Positions 45,850-61,604 of a stretch of 64,000 nucleotides of DNA are shown here, piece after piece (positions within the stretch are counted from its first letter, which is position 1; every line of letters starts with the position of its first letter). Source of the stretch: Nannochloropsis oceanica (lineage: Eukaryota; Sar; Eustigmatophyceae; Eustigmatales; Monodopsidaceae). Both the position numbers and the translations under genes were made by a program. The notes under the pieces are model-generated. The model made no database searches. It had not been told where the DNA came from and saw nothing but the letters and a program-made list of their open reading frames with translations. The stretch covers positions 372,001 to 436,000 of the forward strand of contig CP038106.1 of assembly GCA_004519485.1 (NCBI GenBank), read 5' to 3'.

Positions 45850-48800
45850 ATGTGGTTTAACCAGGCGGGAAGGAACCCCAAGCCGGATGATGATGCTTAC
45901 ATAGCCGCCTTTTACGAGGACCTGGACGGGGCCAGCCCTGGAGACAGAGGTAACTGCTCAACCACACTGGCGGCCTCCTCCTCGGATGCCGCCACTCAAA
46001 TCCGCACCTTTATCGAGCAGGAGGAGCAGGAGCAGTCACCAGGGTCTCAAACCTTTCCCCCGATTTCCCACGATGAGTTCACCTCTGCCCTATTGCCCAT
46101 CACGCGCCTGGCCATTGTCACGAGCGGTTCTGTTCCGACTCCCCTGGACACGGATTCAGTCAATTACCTGGACACTTTGGGGTCGGGTAATCGTGCGGCA
46201 GCATGTGCGGAAGAATTTTTGAGGAAAGGGTATCATGTCATATTCTTGTACCGAGACGGCTCTTTACGCCCCTTTTCCCGAGTCCTGGCCAAGCGTATGA
46301 AAAAAACACATGCGCTGACAGATCAAGTGCAATTAAATTCGAAGACGGGCCGCGTGGAGCTGGTGATGGATGCGGATGAGGAAGCGCGCATGACCCAAGT
46401 CCTCATGGCGTATGAGTCGGTCAAGCTGCGTCTACTCGAAGTGTCCTTTTCTGATCTGTTTGAGTACTTATATCTTTTGCGAGAAGCCTGCCGCGCCGCC
46501 GCGCCATTGCGCCATGGAGCCTTGCTCTTTATGGCTGCTGGATTGACGAAAATGTTTATTCCTCGCCATGAGTTGACTCGACCTTCAGCTACTTTCCTTG
46601 ATCAGGGCAAGGAGGCCTTGAAGCTCTACCCCGTGCCACACATAATTCGCGCCGCGCGGCAATGCTGGTGTCCTCAGGCTTTTCTCGTGGCCTTCAAACT
46701 GGAGAACGACACCCTAAGCCTGGTCGAAGGGGCGCATCGCTTGCTGGAGAGGCATGGCGTGCATCTTGTGGTCGGCAACGTCGTCCGCGAGAGGAATCGC
46801 CGCGTCCTAATCGTGACTGAGCGAGATGAAATTAAGCTGGTCTCTCCGCATGAAAACGAGTTAGAGCCTAGTATGGTCAAAGCCGTGGTGCGAAATCACA
46901 AGCAATTTGCCTTGGAGAAAGAAGCCCTCAAATCCAGTCGTTCCTTACTCGGGCTCTCTGCGAAGTTTACCATGCTGAGGGAAAACAAGAGCGTTGTGGA
47001 CACGGATGCATACGGGAGGAAGCAAGTTCCTTTTAAAGTCGGTTTGCGGATTAAGGCGGATCGACACAAGGCGGACTCGCCGATTTATGAGCTCAAGGCC
47101 GTGTATTCCACCAAGGGAGGTTCTGCACGGGCCAATTTGTGGCAACGTGTGATCGAGGAGGAGGGCGGGGGAGAGGAGGAGGGAGGGGAAGGAGAGAGCA
47201 GAAAGAGTAGCAGCGACACGGCAACCCCTACTTCTTCTACTGCTGCTTTAGCCAATCCCGTGACACCCACGACCATCGCCAAAGGAAAAGGAGAGCTTCT
47301 TCTAACCTTCTCGCCCGCAGGTAAAATCCAAAGCCTGATTACAGCTTTTCTCTTCCTTCTTCCTCTTCTTCACGACTGCATGCACCGCTCACCGTCCCCC
47401 CCCCTCCCCTCCTCGCCCACACTCAAACAGGCAACCCCGAAACCATCCTCAGCCTGTGGGGCGACACTTACAAAGGCTGGCTCGAAGAAGAAGTCAAACA
47501 CCTACTTGCTGCCGCCAGTCATATTCCTCTCACCACCTACTTGAAGATCCTCGCCTCACCGTTGACTGCTGATTTCACCGACCTAGCGGACCTCCTGGCA
47601 CAACTCCGCACCTCAATCGCGAGTGCGTGGAAGAAGCGGGAAAAGACGCAGTTCGTCCAGAGTTATAACAATTTGATGAGTCTGGCATTCGATCGGGCCT
47701 TGATGCCTTTGGAAGGATTGATGGACGCTCAGGAGTTGCTGGACCGACGGAGGGAGATGGAGATGGAGGAGGAGTGGGGGAGAGGAGGGTCAGTGTCTTC
47801 CTGCTCGACCTCCTCCTCCCTGTCAGTTCGATTTGGCCGTTCCCCTAGAGGGTCCATTGGTGTTGCGGGAACGGTTGGGGAAGGAGGGGAAGTGAAGGTG
47901 TTGAAGCTGTTCAAGCCTATTTTTCGTGGTCTTTCTCTGGGCAGCATGTTGCAGGAGAACAAGCAGCGTTTCCCGCGACGTAGAAGCACCCTGACGACCG
48001 AAGGAGGAAGAGGGGGGGGGCGGGAAAGAGGAAGTAGACTGAGTCAATCGAGATACGGCGTGCCTGTGGCAGAGGTGGAGAAGGAGGAAGAGGAAATGGT
48101 AGCCAAGGCCGGGACTGCCAGAGTCCACAACACCGTCAAGCGCTTTGCGGAAGAGATGCTGGACGAAGGAGTACTGGACGATGTGATGGCCCACCTGGAG
48201 ACGAACCCCAACAGTCGTCTAGTCGTCACTGGATATTCTCTTGGGGGAATGCTGTCGCAGATCTTTTGCTTGCGCCTGGGCGAGGCGTTGCTGCAGCGCG
48301 GGCTGTCGACGCGGCATGTGCTGATGATGGGCTTCGGGAGCCCTCGTGTCGGCGACGAAGGATTCATGGCCCGGCTGCGGTTACTCTACCCGAAGCAAAG
48401 CGCGTTGATGAATGTTGTCTACCCTTTGGATACACTCCATGCCTTTCCTCCAGCTGGGGAGGGCTACGTGGATGCCGTCGTCAAGGTTTTCTTGAGGCAG
48501 CCTGGGCAGTTTGTCGGCCGGCGTGCCCCGTCGCGCGCCCGTACTCCCTTTGCCACGCCTTTGACATGGCTCCGTGTGTTCGATAGCAAGGTGGACGAGA
48601 TTGCGTCGAAGCACCGCAATCAGGAAAGGGAGCGGGCAGCAAGTGAGTCTGCTCACTGTGGTAACAGTGTTCGCACTGGCACCAAGGAAGATGAATGCGG
48701 GTTTTGTGGCTCGGACGCGCACACAACCCTCCGCCACCGCTGTCGAATATGCACGGAACGTGGCAGTCATCGCTCAGCCGACTGTCCTAACAAGGACCGA

Positions 48801-49124
48801 GGTTGTAAATTATGTGGCCTTCCTGATCACGCGACCGGGCAACATCTCTGTAGTGTTTGCAAGCTCCACGGGCATCGAGGTAGGTACTGCCACGAGTTGG
48901 CCAGTGTGGGATGGGCAGAGCTAGCAGCATTTGCGCTCTTCCATGATGCGTCGTATTATTCTTTTGCGACCGCGGCCGAGGACCCTGCGACGGTGCAGCG
49001 CATGGCTGAAGTTCCTCTTACCCCTCCTCGGGCGTCACGGCCGCATAAGGGGGGGGGCAAGGTGTTTGGGGTGACATTTAAGGAGGAGGACATGGAACAG
49101 CTTGAGGCTATCAATTATTTGTAA
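45850..49124 (+). CDS. Phosphopantothenate-cysteine ligase fused to class 3 lipase-like domain and zinc knuckles
   Basis: Two exons: 45850-47320 and 47431-49124 (donor GTAAAA, acceptor AAACAG, phase 1), 1054 residues. Residues about 80-360 match eukaryotic PPCS, the coenzyme A pathway enzyme joining phosphopantothenate to cysteine: LAIVTSGSVPTPLDTDSVNYL, CAEEFLRKGYHVIFLYRDGS, MAAGLTKMFIPRHELT and FLVAFKLEND. Residues about 560-880 resemble class 3 lipases: VVTGYSLGGMLSQIFCLRLG with Ser 760 as nucleophile, MGFGSPRVGDEGF, and VYPLDTLHAFPP with a probable Asp. The final His is uncertain. Residues about 900-980 hold three or four Cys/His knuckles (CRICTERGSHRSADCP, CKLCGLPDH, CSVCKLHGHRGRYC). ATG 45688 is an alternative start. 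The unspliced reading stops at 47544, within the second exon's span. Confidence 0.76.
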
Positions 49125-50103: not shown

Positions 50104-53100
50104 ATGCTCTCCTGCACCGTCACGAGCCTCGGAGTTCCTGGCAAGGCGGGGGCTCTCGTGGCGCGCCGCCATATTTCCTACAGCCAGGTAAGGCAAAAGA
50201 ATGGGAATGGAGGAGAAGTGGTGAGCGCTCGTGGGCCTGTGGCTACAGCGCCTGCTGGAGTATGTCCCTAGGACATGGCAACAGACAGCAGCCTGAAGCC
50301 GTGTGAATGGCCACATAGGCTCACATGCTCACATTTACATCTCCAACATACCCACCGCACACTGGAGTAGGCGCGACTGGCCAAGATTCTCTTGAGCGAC
50401 GCCACGGACAAGGTCTGCGCAGAGCAATTCAGAGCCCGTGGCCATGATGTTGACAGCAAGCCGGGCTTGAGCAAGGAGGAGCTTAAGCAGATTATTGGGC
50501 AGTATGACGGTGCGTTTTCAATACTTTGTCTTTGTTGAGGGATGAATACCTGGGTCTTGTCGGGGCTTGGGCAAGTGATGAGGATAAGGACTGGATGGAA
50601 ATCTCGCCCTCCTTCCTGCACGCACGCAACACTCAGCATCCACGAGACATCGATCTTTGGGTCGAGAGCCCCTCTACGTTTGATTTGATTGTGCTCTTTT
50701 TGGAATGTTTGCATTCTCCATGCTTTCTTCGCCCTGCTGTCTGCCAAACCTCGGCTTCCTCCCCACCCCCCTTTCTTCCAACTCAAGTATCCCTTCCCTC
50801 GGCTCATTCCTCCAACTCTCATCCCCGACTCACGCACAATTTTAGCCCTTGTCGTCCGATCCGCCACAAAGGTGACCAAAGACCTGCTCTCCGCCGCCAT
50901 CAACCTCAAGGTCGTGGGTCGCGCCGGCACGGGCGTGGACAACATTGACACCCCCGCCGCGACCATGCAGGGGGTCCTCGTCGTTAATACTCCTGGCGGT
51001 AACACGATTTCGACAGCTGAGTTGACATTCACACATATGCTGGCATTGTCCCGAAACATCCCGCAGGCAGTCGCAAGCTTGAAGGCGGGGAAGTGGGAGA
51101 GGAACAAATACACAGGCACGGAGTTGACGGGCAAGACTTTGGCCGTCATCGGGCTGGGAAGGATCGGGAGGGAGGTGGCAAGGTGGGGGAGGGCGTTTGG
51201 AATGACGACGATCGGATTCGACCCGATTGTGTCGGCGGCTGCGGCACGGGCGGCGGGAATCGAGCCTTTCCCTTTGGAGGAAGTGTGGGCGAAGGCGGAT
51301 TTTATTACCTTGCACACGCCCCTGACGAAAGATACCCGGCATTTGATCAATGCCGAGACGCTGAAGAAGTGCAAAAAGGGGGTGCGAATCGTGAATTGCG
51401 CGCGAGGGGGAATTATTGACGAGGGGGCTTTGTTGGAGGCTCTGGAGAGTGGGCACGTAGCTGGTGCTTCCTTGGATGTCTACGAGTCGGAGCCGCCCAC
51501 GGAGAAGGAACGTCCCCTAGTAATTCACCCGCGCGTGGTGAGCACTCCTCATCTTGGGGCGAACACGAAAGATGCCCAGGTCCGCGTGGCCAAGGACATT
51601 GCGATTCAGCTGTCGGATATCTTGGAGCAGAAGGACTTTGTGGGGGTGGTGAACGCTCCGAATATTGATTTTGCGCGCAAGAGTCAATTGATTCCCTACT
51701 TGCAGCTGGCGGAGAAGGTGGGCTCGTTGCAGGCCCAGTTGATTGGGACGGGGAAGATCAAGAGGATCAATGTGACGATGCAGGGGAAGGATGTGGCGGT
51801 GTCAGAGATGAGCGAGAGCATCAAAATTGCCGTGTTGAAGGGGACCTTGTCGCACTTGCTGGATCAGGAGGTGAACTTTTTGAATGCCGGGCCGTTGGCG
51901 ACGGACATGGGGTTGAGCGTCAATTCAGTGCTGGTTGAACGGCAGGATACGCAGTTCAGCAATACGATCAAGGTGGAGTTCGAGATGGACGGGTTTTTGA
52001 ACTTTTCGAGGTCTATTACGGGGACAGTATTTGGGGGTTCGCAGTTGCGAATCATTGAGATTGATGGGTTCAAGACCGACATCCCCCCGACGGGCTCAGT
52101 AGTCTTCTTCAACAACTTGGACAGGCCGGGGGCGTTGAAGGCGATTGCGGGGGTCTTGAGCAAGAACAATTGCAACATTTCCCACTTTTCCTTGGGGCGG
52201 CAGACGAAGGAGGGGAAGGCCCTGGGGGCTATCACACTGGATGAGCCAGTGCCCCAGAATGTGCTGGAGGAGATCGGGACGTTGCCAGAGATCAGCAACT
52301 GCTCCCAGGTCCAGCTGCTGGACATGGCCGACAAGGTCTTCCGCATCCATCAGAAAAGCGAGCCTACGTACGTGGCGGGGGATGCTCGTCCACATGTCCG
52401 CCCGGAGAATCCTCAGTTTTCCTCGGGCCCTACCAAGAAACGCCCTGGGTATAGTTATGCAGCGCTGGGCACTGATTGCTTGGGGCGATCGCATCGATCC
52501 AAGATTGGCAAGGCGAAGCTGAAGCTGGCCATCGAGGAGAGTAAGCGATTGTTGCAGCTTCCGGAGGATTATCGACTGGGGATCGTGCCGGCGTCGGATA
52601 CGGGGGCGTATGAAATGGCCATGTGGAGCATGCTGGGCGCGCGGCCGGTGGATGTCTTTTACTGGGAATCGTTTGGTAAGGGTTGGTTCACGGATGCCGT
52701 CTCGCACTTGGGCCTGAAGGAGAGTGTGGGCATCCAGGAGCACTCGGCCGATTACGGCCAGCTGCCGGATTTTACTAAGTACGTCTTTTAACGGGCAGAG
52801 GAAGGAAGGAGGGAGAGACTGAGGGAGCAGAGAGTTATGAGATTGTCTTCTTTGATTTGAATGGTGTGGGGATGGGGATTATTTGGTGGAGCTAAATCAT
52901 GCAGTTCGTGGCATAAGCTCACCCCTCCCTGCCACCCCTCCTTCCCTCCCTCTTCTCCTCCAGGTACAACCCGAAGCACGACGCCCTCTTTACCTACAAC
53001 GGCACTACCTCCGGGGCCCGGCTTAAGGACACCGATTGGATTCCGGACGAACGGACGGGCTTGACGTTCAACGATGCAACCTCAGCTGCTTTCGCCATGC

Positions 53101-53696
53101 CCATGGCCTGGCCGAAGCTTGACGTGACGACCTACTCTTGGCAGAAGGTGTTAGGGGGGGAGGGAGGACACGGGGTGATCATCCTGTCCCCGCGGGCGGT
53201 GGAGCGGCTAGAGAATTATAAGCCGAAGTGGCCGCTACCGAAGATCTTCCGGATGACAAAGAAAGGGAAGTTGGACGAGGCGCTGTTCGAGGGGTCGACG
53301 ATCAATACGCCCTCGATGCTGGCGGTGGAAGACTACCTGGACGCTTTGGCTTGGGCGGACACGGTGGGCGGCCTAGATGGGCTGGTGAGCCGGTCGGTGA
53401 AGAATTATAAGGTGCTTGAAAAGTTCGTGTCGGAGAATGAGTGGATCTCGTTCCTCGTCAAGGACCCCTCGATTCGGTCGACGACGAGCGTGTGCTTGCA
53501 GCTGGAATTGAGCAAGGAGCAGGTGAAGGCTTTCACGGGGCTGTTGGAGAAGGAGGGGGTGGGGTTGGACATGGGCTCGTACCGGGATGCCCCCCCCGGG
53601 CTACGGATTTGGTGCGGGGCGACGGTGGACTCGGAGGACCTCGAGGCATTGATGCCTTGGTTGTCGTGGGCGTATGCGGAGGTGACCAAAAAGTAA
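50104..53696 (+). CDS. Bifunctional phosphoglycerate dehydrogenase / phosphoserine aminotransferase
   Basis: Catalyses the first two steps of the phosphorylated serine pathway: 3-phosphoglycerate to phosphohydroxypyruvate, then to phosphoserine. Four exons in phase: 50104-50187, 50371-50509, 50846-52778 and 52964-53696; 962 residues. Exon 1 is a presequence-like leader ([12 protein letters not shown]). The dehydrogenase has [23 protein letters not shown], the NAD motif [11 protein letters not shown] at about 174, catalytic NCARGG and STPHLGANT, and an ACT domain ([20 protein letters not shown]). The aminotransferase starts near residue 592 ([16 protein letters not shown]) with PLP-lysine 780 in [14 protein letters not shown]. 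This PSAT is of the class V type known from alphaproteobacteria and Methanosarcina. No linker stop exists, and the last splice lies inside the PSAT domain. Confidence 0.94.
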
Positions 53697-58657: not shown

Positions 58658-59129
58658 CGCTGGAGAGAAAGTGGGTGGGTGTTGGTATGTGTGCCTGTGC
58701 GGTATTAGTACTATTAGTAATCTAGTGTGACAGTAGCTTCTCAGGGACAGGGAAAAATCCCATTGTATGGGCATGGAAGTAAATTGGTAAACAAAAATGA
58801 CGATCTTGATGCACGCCCATTCAACAAAAGAACAAGAAACAAACAAAAACATGCGACGAACGTAACCATGACCGACAAACACCATCACCATGAACATTTC
58901 GCGATTCTTCTCTTGTCAAAATGGCCAAACCCCCAGGCCGCCTCACTGTCAAGATGTTCAGAAACTTATAGGCCAAGGGCTCGTTTACTCGGCGTGCCCT
59001 CGATTTCCACTCACAGACCCTTTCCTGCCACCAAAAACAGACGAGCAAGCGCCAGCCTCCCCCTTCCCAGTGAGTCATCACCCGCACAAGCAAGGTCTCA
59101 ATGCGCCATAACAAGACGACCTGTCAAAG
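58658..59129. other. Intergenic
   Basis: Tandem spacer between the Fun30 gene and the PX-EDR2_C gene. No gene is seen. Confidence 0.55.
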
Positions 59130-59982
59130 ATGAACCCCACCGACCAGGCGTCGCCTATACCACCTGTGACACCGCCCCACAACGGCCACCGCCACCTCAT
59201 CGGTCGGTTTCTAATTAAAGTGCAAGGTGTAGTTGCTAACGGGCAAGGCAGTGCTGGTGTCCTTGGAGTTGCCCTGGTTAGTCCCTTGGCGTTTTCCCAT
59301 CTGCCCTGGTTGCTTGGCGTGTTGCTTGTCTTTCTAGTAGGCATTGCGATTGAGGTTGGGCCGGGCTTGGCACTTCATTTCTTGGGCCCCCTTGAAACTC
59401 AGAAGCAGGCTGTGACGGGAGTAGGGAACCCGGGCCGCAGCGCTGCTTCCTCTCAGGCTGCTGTCCCTGTCCCGACATCCACGCCGATCCGAGCAAGTAG
59501 CGCCTGCATATTGGCTGCTGCAAATAGGAAAATGGCCTCCGCCACCGGCGCTGCAGGCACAGGGAACCAAGCAGCAAACGCAAGGAGTTCTTCTTTGTTT
59601 GGAGCGTGTATAGAGATCAAGGCATTTCGGGTGGTAGAAAGAAGCTTCGCGAGCTACAAGGTGGCAGTGACGTGTCCTGTTGACAATAACAGCAGCAGTA
59701 GCAGTACCAGCAGTTGGTCGGTGTGGAAGCGATATTCGGATTTTGAAGATTTGCGGGAGAGCTTGGACAAGCGCAGGCCGAGGCACGGAGGCTCTCTACC
59801 GCCAATACCTCCCAAGACTCTATTCAAGAATTTATCGCCCAAGTTTTTAATAAAGCGGGCGGAAAGTCTCGAGGAATTCATGACGGAGATTCTGAAGCGG
59901 CGAGACACGTGTGATGATCCGATTTTAAGGCAGTTTTTGGATGCGGGACCTCTTGGTCCGCCGCTGGCTCAAGGGCAGCAGG

Positions 59983-60013
<31 letters not shown>

Positions 60014-61604
60014 GCAGCAGCAGGAGGAGGGGAAGAAAGGGGGGAGGGACGATGAAAGGAGAATACCAACAGCAGCAGTCACCATGCCGCACTCATCCTC
60101 TGCAATGGCGGCAGGGGGTATACCCCTATTCCCACCACCCTCACACGATGGGGAGAAAGAGAAGCAAAGGAAGGGGAAAGGGAAAGAAACATCGATAATC
60201 AATCCGATGCTTCTGCCGCGACATCGTCGGGCTTGTAGGGTAAGCTTGAATTCCACGGACGGCAACGAGGTGGAAATGGAGGTGGAGGATGAGGACATAG
60301 ACGAGGACGAGAAAGTAGAAGCAGCAGCAGCAGAAGCAGCAGCAGGGGCAGCCACCGGGGGAATCACCTGTGCAACAAATCGCTTCCCAATTGATTTGTA
60401 TCTTAAGGCTGATGGTTGTACAGTTGAAGGCAAGGAAAACGTGAACTTGGAAGGAATGGATGAAAGGGACGAGCTGCAGATCTCTGGGGGCCGCCCGACT
60501 CTCTCTACGGCCAGCACCGATGACGGCATGGATGACGAGGTACGTGCCTCGAGGACAGCCAGCCAGATCATGGAGAAAGTCCGTGCCTTGTCCACTCACT
60601 CCTCTTCCGAATGGGGCCGCATTGTGCCCTCCTCTTCGTGTTCCTCTCTTCCTTTCCTGTCCACGGGGGACGCCGAGAGCGCTTCCTCCGCAGAACTAGT
60701 TGAAGCGCCATCTTCAGCCCCACCAGGACCACCCCGACTCCCTTACCTTAAAGGACGTTATTCAGGCATGTCCCTCGAAAAGTATGCATCAGTAGGCCTC
60801 CGTGTCCAACACCCCTTTGCATATTATGACCCTGGGAATGACAACACATTTCATGTCCGGGGGAAGCACTACCTCCAAGATAGGCGTAAATTCTCTGCGG
60901 GCCCCCCTGTGGGGAAACTGGTCATGGCCTGTGTTTTCAAGATTCCTCCAGAATATCCCGGCCAGCGAGAAGATCACATAGCAAGTCGCGGGAGAATGGC
61001 AGACATGCTACGAGAGATGCAAGATTTGGACGCGCGAGATGGACGGCCACCGTTTTTGTTTTTGGTCAATTTTCAGGTCCCAGGCGATCCGCCGTTGAGC
61101 ACGGTAACGGTATTTGCGTTGCCACGTGATAGGCGGGAGGAGGATGGGTGTTTCTGGGCCCTGTTTGATCGGTTTTTGGATTTTCCGATGGAAGAGGGGG
61201 AGGAGAGAGGGGGGAAGGGAGGGAAGTTCAGCTTGAGCGACTTTAAAAACAAGAGGTTTAAATTGATTCCGAGCATCGTCGAGGGTCCCTCGATAATTAA
61301 GTGGGCGGTAGGCAACAAGCCAACGATTTTAGGCCAGAAGCTCACGCAGCGTTATTTCCGGGGAGAGAACTATGTTGAGGTTGATGTGGATATTGCGAGC
61401 TCGGCGTTGGCGAGTCAGATCGTGTCCTTGTGTCGGGGGTACGCACGATATCTAAAGGTGGAGATGGGAATTGTCCTGCAGGGGGAAGAGGAGGCGGTGG
61501 AGTTGCCGGAGAAATTGCTGGGGACGATTGGGATCGTGAATCTGGATATCAATGCATATGGAAAGGACGAGTATTTGAATATACCGGAGGGAGAGAGGGA
61601 ATAA
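59130..61604 (+). CDS. PX-domain and EDR2_C (DUF1336) membrane protein
   Basis: 824-residue single-exon protein that probably binds phosphoinositides and lipids at organelle contact sites. Two hydrophobic segments lie near residues 45-85 (FSHLPWLLGVLLVFLVGIAI). A PX domain covers about 153-267 (WSVWKRYSDFEDLRESL, then PPIPPKTLFKN and FMTEILKR), with the RYSDF and PPxPPK signatures of phosphoinositide binding. A long Gln/acidic/Ser linker follows. The C-terminal 280 residues are EDR2_C (GRYSGMSLEKYASVGLRVQ, FLFLVNFQVPG, RFKLIPSIVEGPSIIKWAVG, YVEVDVDIASSALA). Plant EDR2 proteins carry PH and START domains before this module; here PX replaces them. The pairing and the N-terminal anchor are the unusual points. 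Confidence 0.86.

Follow-up and report, generated by a model that had tools for sequence, protein, structure and literature searches.

In the 64,000-nucleotide window of Nannochloropsis oceanica DNA analysed here (the whole stretch, with a guanine plus cytosine content of 53.87%) we find at 45850-49124 on the plus strand a predicted gene, read from its open reading frames as two exons encoding 1054 residues and a stop. Its product joins, in this order, a domain like phosphopantothenoylcysteine synthetase (PPCS; residues 85-340), a class 3 lipase-like domain (residues 716-831) and four Cys/His knuckles (residues 913-977). Our comparisons suggest that the PPCS-like domain is very probably a dead ligase that no longer makes phosphopantothenoylcysteine, while a canonical PPCS elsewhere in the genome, on contig C16, would be the working enzyme of coenzyme A (CoA) synthesis. 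The explanation that we prefer as a whole, in which one gene combines a dead PPCS, a class 3 lipase-like domain and four zinc knuckles in a regulatory protein, has in our judgment about an even chance of being right. The features that carry the first of these claims are as follows, with residues of human PPCS numbered, here and throughout, by chain position in the phmmer match.

46102..46869, plus strand: PPCS-like domain, residues 85-340, a probable pseudoenzyme (phmmer match to human PPCS chain 7edz_D, E 2.7e-32; DFP over its cut-off)
46162..46176, plus strand: codons 105-109, with Asn105 and Thr109 at the places of human Arg55 and Asn59 (from the alignments)
46540..46587, plus strand: codons 231-246, with Gly231, Lys234 and Ser246 at the places of human Ala180, Asp183 and Lys195 (from the alignments, the Lys195 place lying in the loop of least sure alignment)
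Contig C16, L015:1147-2553, minus strand: canonical PPCS frame of 468 residues (DFP and human PPCS matches)

Homology to PPCS is present over the catalytic domain of the fusion, where a phmmer search of the PDB matched human PPCS over residues 85-340 with 115 bits and yeast CAB2 with E 1.3e-28, and where the Pfam PPCS domain DFP (PF04127) scored 33.3 bits against a cut-off of 22 (E 5.5e-8), its best stretch being residues 254-316. As site residues we use those of human PPCS that we take to touch ATP or phosphopantothenate, contacts reportedly described in the structure paper of Manoj and colleagues from 2003. Seven of them are changed in the fusion (Arg55 to Asn105, Asn59 to Thr109, Ser61 to Gly111, Gly66 to Ala116, Ala180 to Gly231, Asp183 to Lys234 and Lys195 to Ser246), and Gly43, Gly63, Ala179, Phe230, Glu233 and Asn258 are kept; judged by the alignments, part of the nucleotide-binding side is thus retained. 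Arg55, Asn59, Ala180, Asp183 and Lys195 are identical in human PPCS, in the C16 copy and in all 26 prokaryotic CoaB domains that we compared, and not one of the five is found in the fusion (0/5). Gly43, Gly63, Phe230 and Asn258 are likewise identical in 26/26 of these CoaB domains, followed by Ser61 and Ala179 (25/26 each), Gly66 (24/26) and Glu233 (23/26). The 26 genomes were chosen for spread from the 80 behind the lipase loci fetched for the comparison given further below, and all 26 yielded a match; the CoaB domains were taken by position, and a set gathered by pattern was discarded because its pattern presupposed part of the residues being tested and lost 9 of the 26. Since all five residues that showed no variation in this sample, from prokaryotes to human, have been replaced together, we take the fused domain to be very probably a pseudoenzyme, with the C16 copy as the working ligase.

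Published work on related enzymes places several of these positions in the active site. For the Mycobacterium smegmatis enzyme, R207, N211, A280 and D281 are described as active-site residues, with D281 helping to hold the cation and a K-X-K-K loop of the opposing protomer closing over the site, and the human enzyme is described as having an arginine equivalent to R207 (PMC7794376). The other equivalences (N211, D281 and the K-X-K-K loop) were matched by alignment and spacing in our own analysis. Among the disease variants reported for human PPCS is Ala180Pro; Glu233, which the fusion keeps, is described as an active-site residue of the human enzyme (PMC12313872).

Several observations weigh against the loss of a catalytic site as the right reading of these changes. 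In 69 of the 126 columns in which human and C16 PPCS agree the fusion is changed, and 5 of the 12 listed site residues common to those two proteins are kept as compared with 57/126 across those columns (P 0.52), which means that the losses are not concentrated in the site. For the five-residue subset the figure of 0/5 gives P 0.046, but this subset was chosen after the alignment had been seen. Moreover, the alignment is uncertain in the loop that holds the Lys195 place, a lysine of the fusion (Lys254) follows eight residues on, and on the nucleotide side Ser61 and Gly66 have been lost as well. The argument for a pseudoenzyme is drawn from the invariance of the residues concerned, above all Arg55, Asn59 and Asp183, and not from their enrichment among the changes.

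The original prediction had seen in this protein a working CoA ligase with an added lipase, a single polypeptide that would couple CoA synthesis to acyl-lipid turnover. A PPCS fold that extends over about 255 residues at E 2.7e-32 to human PPCS, together with the retained Gly43, Gly63, Ala179, Phe230, Glu233 and Asn258, would be in keeping with that proposal, but the replacement of five residues shared by the human, C16 and 26/26 prokaryotic enzymes, and the existence of a separate canonical PPCS in the same genome, speak against it, and we regard it as highly improbable. In the assembly searched (29264788 bases in 32 contigs) DFP gave four matches, of which C16 holds two and the exon-1 frame of the fusion gene the other two. 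The C16 protein, 33% identical to the fusion over 270 columns, matches human PPCS with 196.5 bits versus 115 for the fusion, keeps the stretches SGGT, NFSTGKRG, AVSDFYIP and EHKIQSS, and departs from the 13 site residues checked at the Ala179 place only, where it has a Cys (12 of 13 retained); on this evidence it is very probably the ligase that works in this genome. Near its C-terminus it has a hydrophobic segment (frame residues 439-457, Kyte-Doolittle mean 2.12), so that it may be tail-anchored in a membrane. For PPCDC, the genome offers one candidate, on contig C11, which is its sole flavoprotein match (PF02441). Duplication of PPCS is not unique to this alga, as two PPCS genes have been reported in Plasmodium falciparum (PMC8717973).

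Whether the PPCS-like and lipase-like parts belong to one protein depends on how the following segments are joined.

45850..47320, plus strand: exon 1, 1471 nucleotides, residues 1-490 and the first base of codon 491, covering an N-terminal extension, the PPCS-like domain and a low-complexity linker (open frame, codon signal)
47321..47430, plus strand: intron, 110 nucleotides, GT-AG, with a pyrimidine-rich 3' part (sequence, negative codon score)
47431..49124, plus strand: exon 2, 1694 nucleotides, from the rest of codon 491 to the stop, covering linker, lipase-like domain, knuckles and C-terminal tail (open frame, mostly positive codon score)

The exons join in phase (1471 + 1694 = 3165 nucleotides) with the junction CAG/GTAAAA...CAG/GC. 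The only GT within 47281-47345 is that at 47321, and for the acceptor 47331-47450 offers AGs ending at 47333, 47344 and 47430. To train a codon score we took 20 further long frames from the window, which were found mechanically and of which not every one is a proven gene. In the exon-1 frame this score stays weakly positive until about the donor and falls below zero in the intron (-0.236 in that frame). In the exon-2 frame it is about zero over the first 90 nucleotides past the acceptor and mostly positive beyond about 47500; it turns negative at 47800-47889, 47980-48069 and 48610-48879, of which the last holds the knuckles. The earliest ATG in the exon-2 frame stands at 47676, 243 nucleotides into it, and a separate lipase gene would need a start there or later, or else a borrowed upstream exon. 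The 243 nucleotides from 47433 to 47676 have a mean codon score of 0.172, a value reached by 98 of 4000 wrong-frame pieces, and 1422 of 4000 right-frame pieces score no higher. Two adjacent genes wrongly joined, one PPCS-like and one for the lipase and knuckles, would suit the near-zero score at the beginning of exon 2 and the continuation of the exon-1 open frame through the intron, retention of which would give a PPCS-like protein ending at a stop at 47544, without lipase and knuckles. Against two genes stand the shift of the coding signal from one frame to the other across a GT-AG intron and the 243 nucleotides of right-frame-like score that precede the first ATG, and we think such a misjoining improbable. 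A single spliced gene, favored because of phase, splice sites, codon signal and the lack of both an exon-2-frame ATG before 47676 and an exon-1-frame stop before 47544, is with good probability the better reading, in agreement with the phase-consistent two-exon gene first proposed. The domain order proposed with it is likewise supported, by Pfam and phmmer matches for the PPCS and lipase parts and by the Cys/His pattern for the knuckles. The protein also contains long low-complexity stretches, and between its PPCS-like and lipase-like domains no family passed its Pfam cut-off. Matches to Pex26 (E 0.18 and 0.079), Thioesterase (E 0.011 and 0.0045) and eIF3g (E 0.029), all below the Pfam cut-off, were dropped.

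In the second exon the lipase-like part has the following landmarks, for which a predicted structure (AF2, AlphaFold2) was usable in this part of the protein only; pLDDT is its predicted local distance difference test score.

48105..48452, plus strand: class 3 lipase-like core, residues 716-831 (Pfam Lipase_3; AF2 block-mean pLDDT 83-94 over residues 732-851; fold matches)
47922..47930, plus strand: FRG, residues 655-657, one of two candidate oxyanion elements (by eye against the FRGT of paralogs; the alignment prefers residues 716-719)
48237..48239, plus strand: Ser760, candidate nucleophile in GYSLGG (aligned with 48 lipases of bacteria or archaea that a Ser-elbow pattern had selected)
48429..48431, plus strand: Asp824, candidate triad acid (Asp in 48/48 aligned lipases)
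48612..48614, plus strand: His885, uncertain candidate triad base (column His in 47/48; inside a long helix of the AF2 model, block-mean pLDDT 71)

Pfam Lipase_3 (PF01764) scored 45.9 bits against a cut-off of 22 (E 6.7e-12), and the core, modelled with confidence, appears to keep both the Ser elbow (GYSLGG, residues 758-763) and the Asp, so that the Ser elbow and likely Asp noticed at the outset can be named as Ser760 and Asp824 in an alignment to lipases picked by their Ser elbow. The same prediction had seen neither an obvious upstream oxyanion motif nor a certain His, and had suggested that the lipase part may bind lipid instead of cutting it, which may still hold; for the two elements we can offer tentative candidates, namely FRG at residues 655-657 or AGT at residues 717-719, and His885. 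It is conceivable that the domain is an active acyl hydrolase with a Ser760-Asp824-His885 triad, which the dead PPCS and the knuckles would target or regulate, and the alignment columns for Asp and His are compatible with this. However, GHS(L/M)GGAL- and FRGT-type patterns served to fetch the comparison lipases and a Ser-elbow pattern to excise them, and the Ser column is therefore no independent test; His885 sits within a long helix of the model, a profile of 80 lipases aligns just residues 739-852, there is no clear oxyanion element, and the sequence departs from the VHxGF and YxHxG motifs. We consider an active hydrolase a serious but tentative alternative, somewhat on the doubtful side. 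The assembly has at least 23 Lipase_3 matches, some of them in long frames with what appear by eye to be other domains, which indicates that lipase fusions as such are not rare in this genome. One of these frames (L005, contig C15, minus strand) has an upstream Cys/His stretch that by eye resembles a FYVE finger, a second combination of a lipase with a zinc-binding element, and another (L002, contig C6, minus strand) has an upstream stretch that by eye resembles a C2 domain.

The C-terminal part of the protein adds one further feature.

48696..48890, plus strand: four Cys/His knuckles, residues 913-926, 928-942, 949-962 and 964-977 (pattern; shuffles for three of the four)

In order, the spacings are CX2CX4HX4H, CX2CX5HX4C, CX2CX4HX4H and CX2CX4HX4C. 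One of the four units has exactly the CCHC spacing CX2CX4HX4C; the remaining three either end in His instead of Cys or are longer by one residue. Three units within 70 residues (residues 921-990) were obtained in 0 of 20000 shuffles of that stretch, and the fourth unit starts just upstream. Their identification as zinc knuckles has to be weighed against the Pfam results, as no knuckle passed its cut-off (zf-CCHC_2 at 12.2 bits versus 27) and a genome search with zf-CCHC gave four other sites and not those of the fusion, and against the codon score, which over the knuckles falls below zero in the coding frame and above zero in a different frame, with synonymous usage uninformative. We conjecture that this adverse score may be due to rare Cys and His codons. 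In the PDB the knuckles found two retroviral nucleocapsid chains (E 0.14 and 0.18); the top row, a designed repeat protein (E 7.3e-8), was dropped, as none of its stretches passes alone.

Considering that a broken-looking PPCS copy in the fusion coexists with a normal copy elsewhere, a regulator or scaffold is a more likely function for the fusion protein than a CoA enzyme, and a role of this kind is for us an evenly balanced proposition. The pseudo-PPCS domain could then be a regulatory module that binds nucleotide, which we propose because part of the nucleotide side is kept, or that pairs with the real PPCS; the lipase-like domain could be the effector or scaffold, and the knuckles could dock the protein on nucleic acid or protein. 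PPCS is described as a dimer with its site at the interface (PMC7770189, PMC12313872), and an association of all five mammalian CoA enzymes has been reported, which increases with starvation and oxidative stress (PMC7865483). Were the fused domain to pair with the C16 enzyme, it would fail to supply the Arg and the Lys that each site takes from its partner, and the fused domain's own site would be without the Asn and the Asp. Both protomers contribute to the PPCS site, and a partner that lacks the cross-dimer Arg and Lys would therefore poison the site of the real enzyme. Specific pairing with the real PPCS is a rather unlikely outcome, and less likely again is the fuller proposal that the fusion is a dominant-negative brake on CoA synthesis, steered by a lipid-sensing lipase-like domain and the zinc knuckles, and thus a direct lipid-to-CoA control protein. 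At the other extreme the gene might have no function and be the remnant of a PPCS duplicate that took up a lipase exon and is now drifting, as the change of 69/126 otherwise shared columns and the extent of low-complexity sequence would allow; this too we find unlikely, given that both exons are open over 3.1 kilobases with mostly coding-like codon use and that the spacing of the knuckles is regular.

Compared with known systems, the regulatory protein that we favor has partial counterparts. Human PPCS and yeast CAB2 share with it homology over residues 85-340 and part of the nucleotide-binding side, whereas the fusion lacks Arg55, Asn59, Ala180, Asp183 and Lys195 and carries extra domains. 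With class 3 lipases of PF01764, such as Rhizomucor miehei lipase and Aspergillus feruloyl esterase A, it shares the core fold, the Ser elbow and the Asp, but its oxyanion element and His are only candidates, it has GYS where the aligned class 3 lipase paralogs have GHS, and its lipase part has a long low-complexity insert and follows a PPCS-like domain. It differs from the plant EDS1/PAD4/SAG101 lipase-like proteins in having PPCS-like and knuckle parts. A precedent for regulation by paralogs of the next CoA enzyme is offered by yeast Hal3, Cab3 and Vhs3, where Hal3 is described as regulating the phosphatase Ppz1 and as forming with Cab3 a heterotrimeric PPCDC in which a single site works (PMC6168597). 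However, these are relatives of PPCDC and not of PPCS, and the flavoprotein domain (PF02441) is absent from the Pfam matches of the fusion to E 1.

Searches for relatives gave little that would strengthen this reading, and it counts against it that no orthologue of the fusion was found in the viral and prokaryotic collections searched. In the viral contig collection the proteins of the two exons gave 2 and 6 pattern-matching stretches, none of which encodes a relative, and in the prokaryotic genome contigs a search led by the C16 PPCS gave 0 relatives among 153 pattern matches, a weak negative because a CoaB domain was later found in each of the 26 genomes tested. Within the same genome, searches with the whole protein and with its lipase, middle and knuckle parts recovered, beyond the fusion gene itself, only the C16 PPCS, two weak lipase matches (E 0.0165 and 0.0291) and one match on contig C27, which we set aside as low-complexity sequence. 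The prediction that no protein with this domain order had been described agrees with the open-access literature, in which a search by titles and abstract starts found no account of such a PPCS-lipase-knuckle fusion; a search of it aimed at pseudo-PPCS proteins also turned up none.

Two other loci of the window encode multidomain products. At 50689-53696 a 3-phosphoglycerate dehydrogenase frame (2-Hacid_dh, PGDH_inter and ACT) runs into what by eye resembles a phosphoserine aminotransferase, which a second frame continues at 52917-53696. The two may thus form a fusion of the enzymes that open serine synthesis, with the aminotransferase part assigned by eye. At 59115-61601 a protein joins a PX domain and an EDR2_C domain.

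For the fusion gene itself, annotation by domain name would wrongly list it as a CoA enzyme. If our interpretation is true, the alga, apparently an oil former, would have in this dead PPCS with its attached lipase-like domain a concrete candidate for a protein through which CoA and lipid metabolism communicate.

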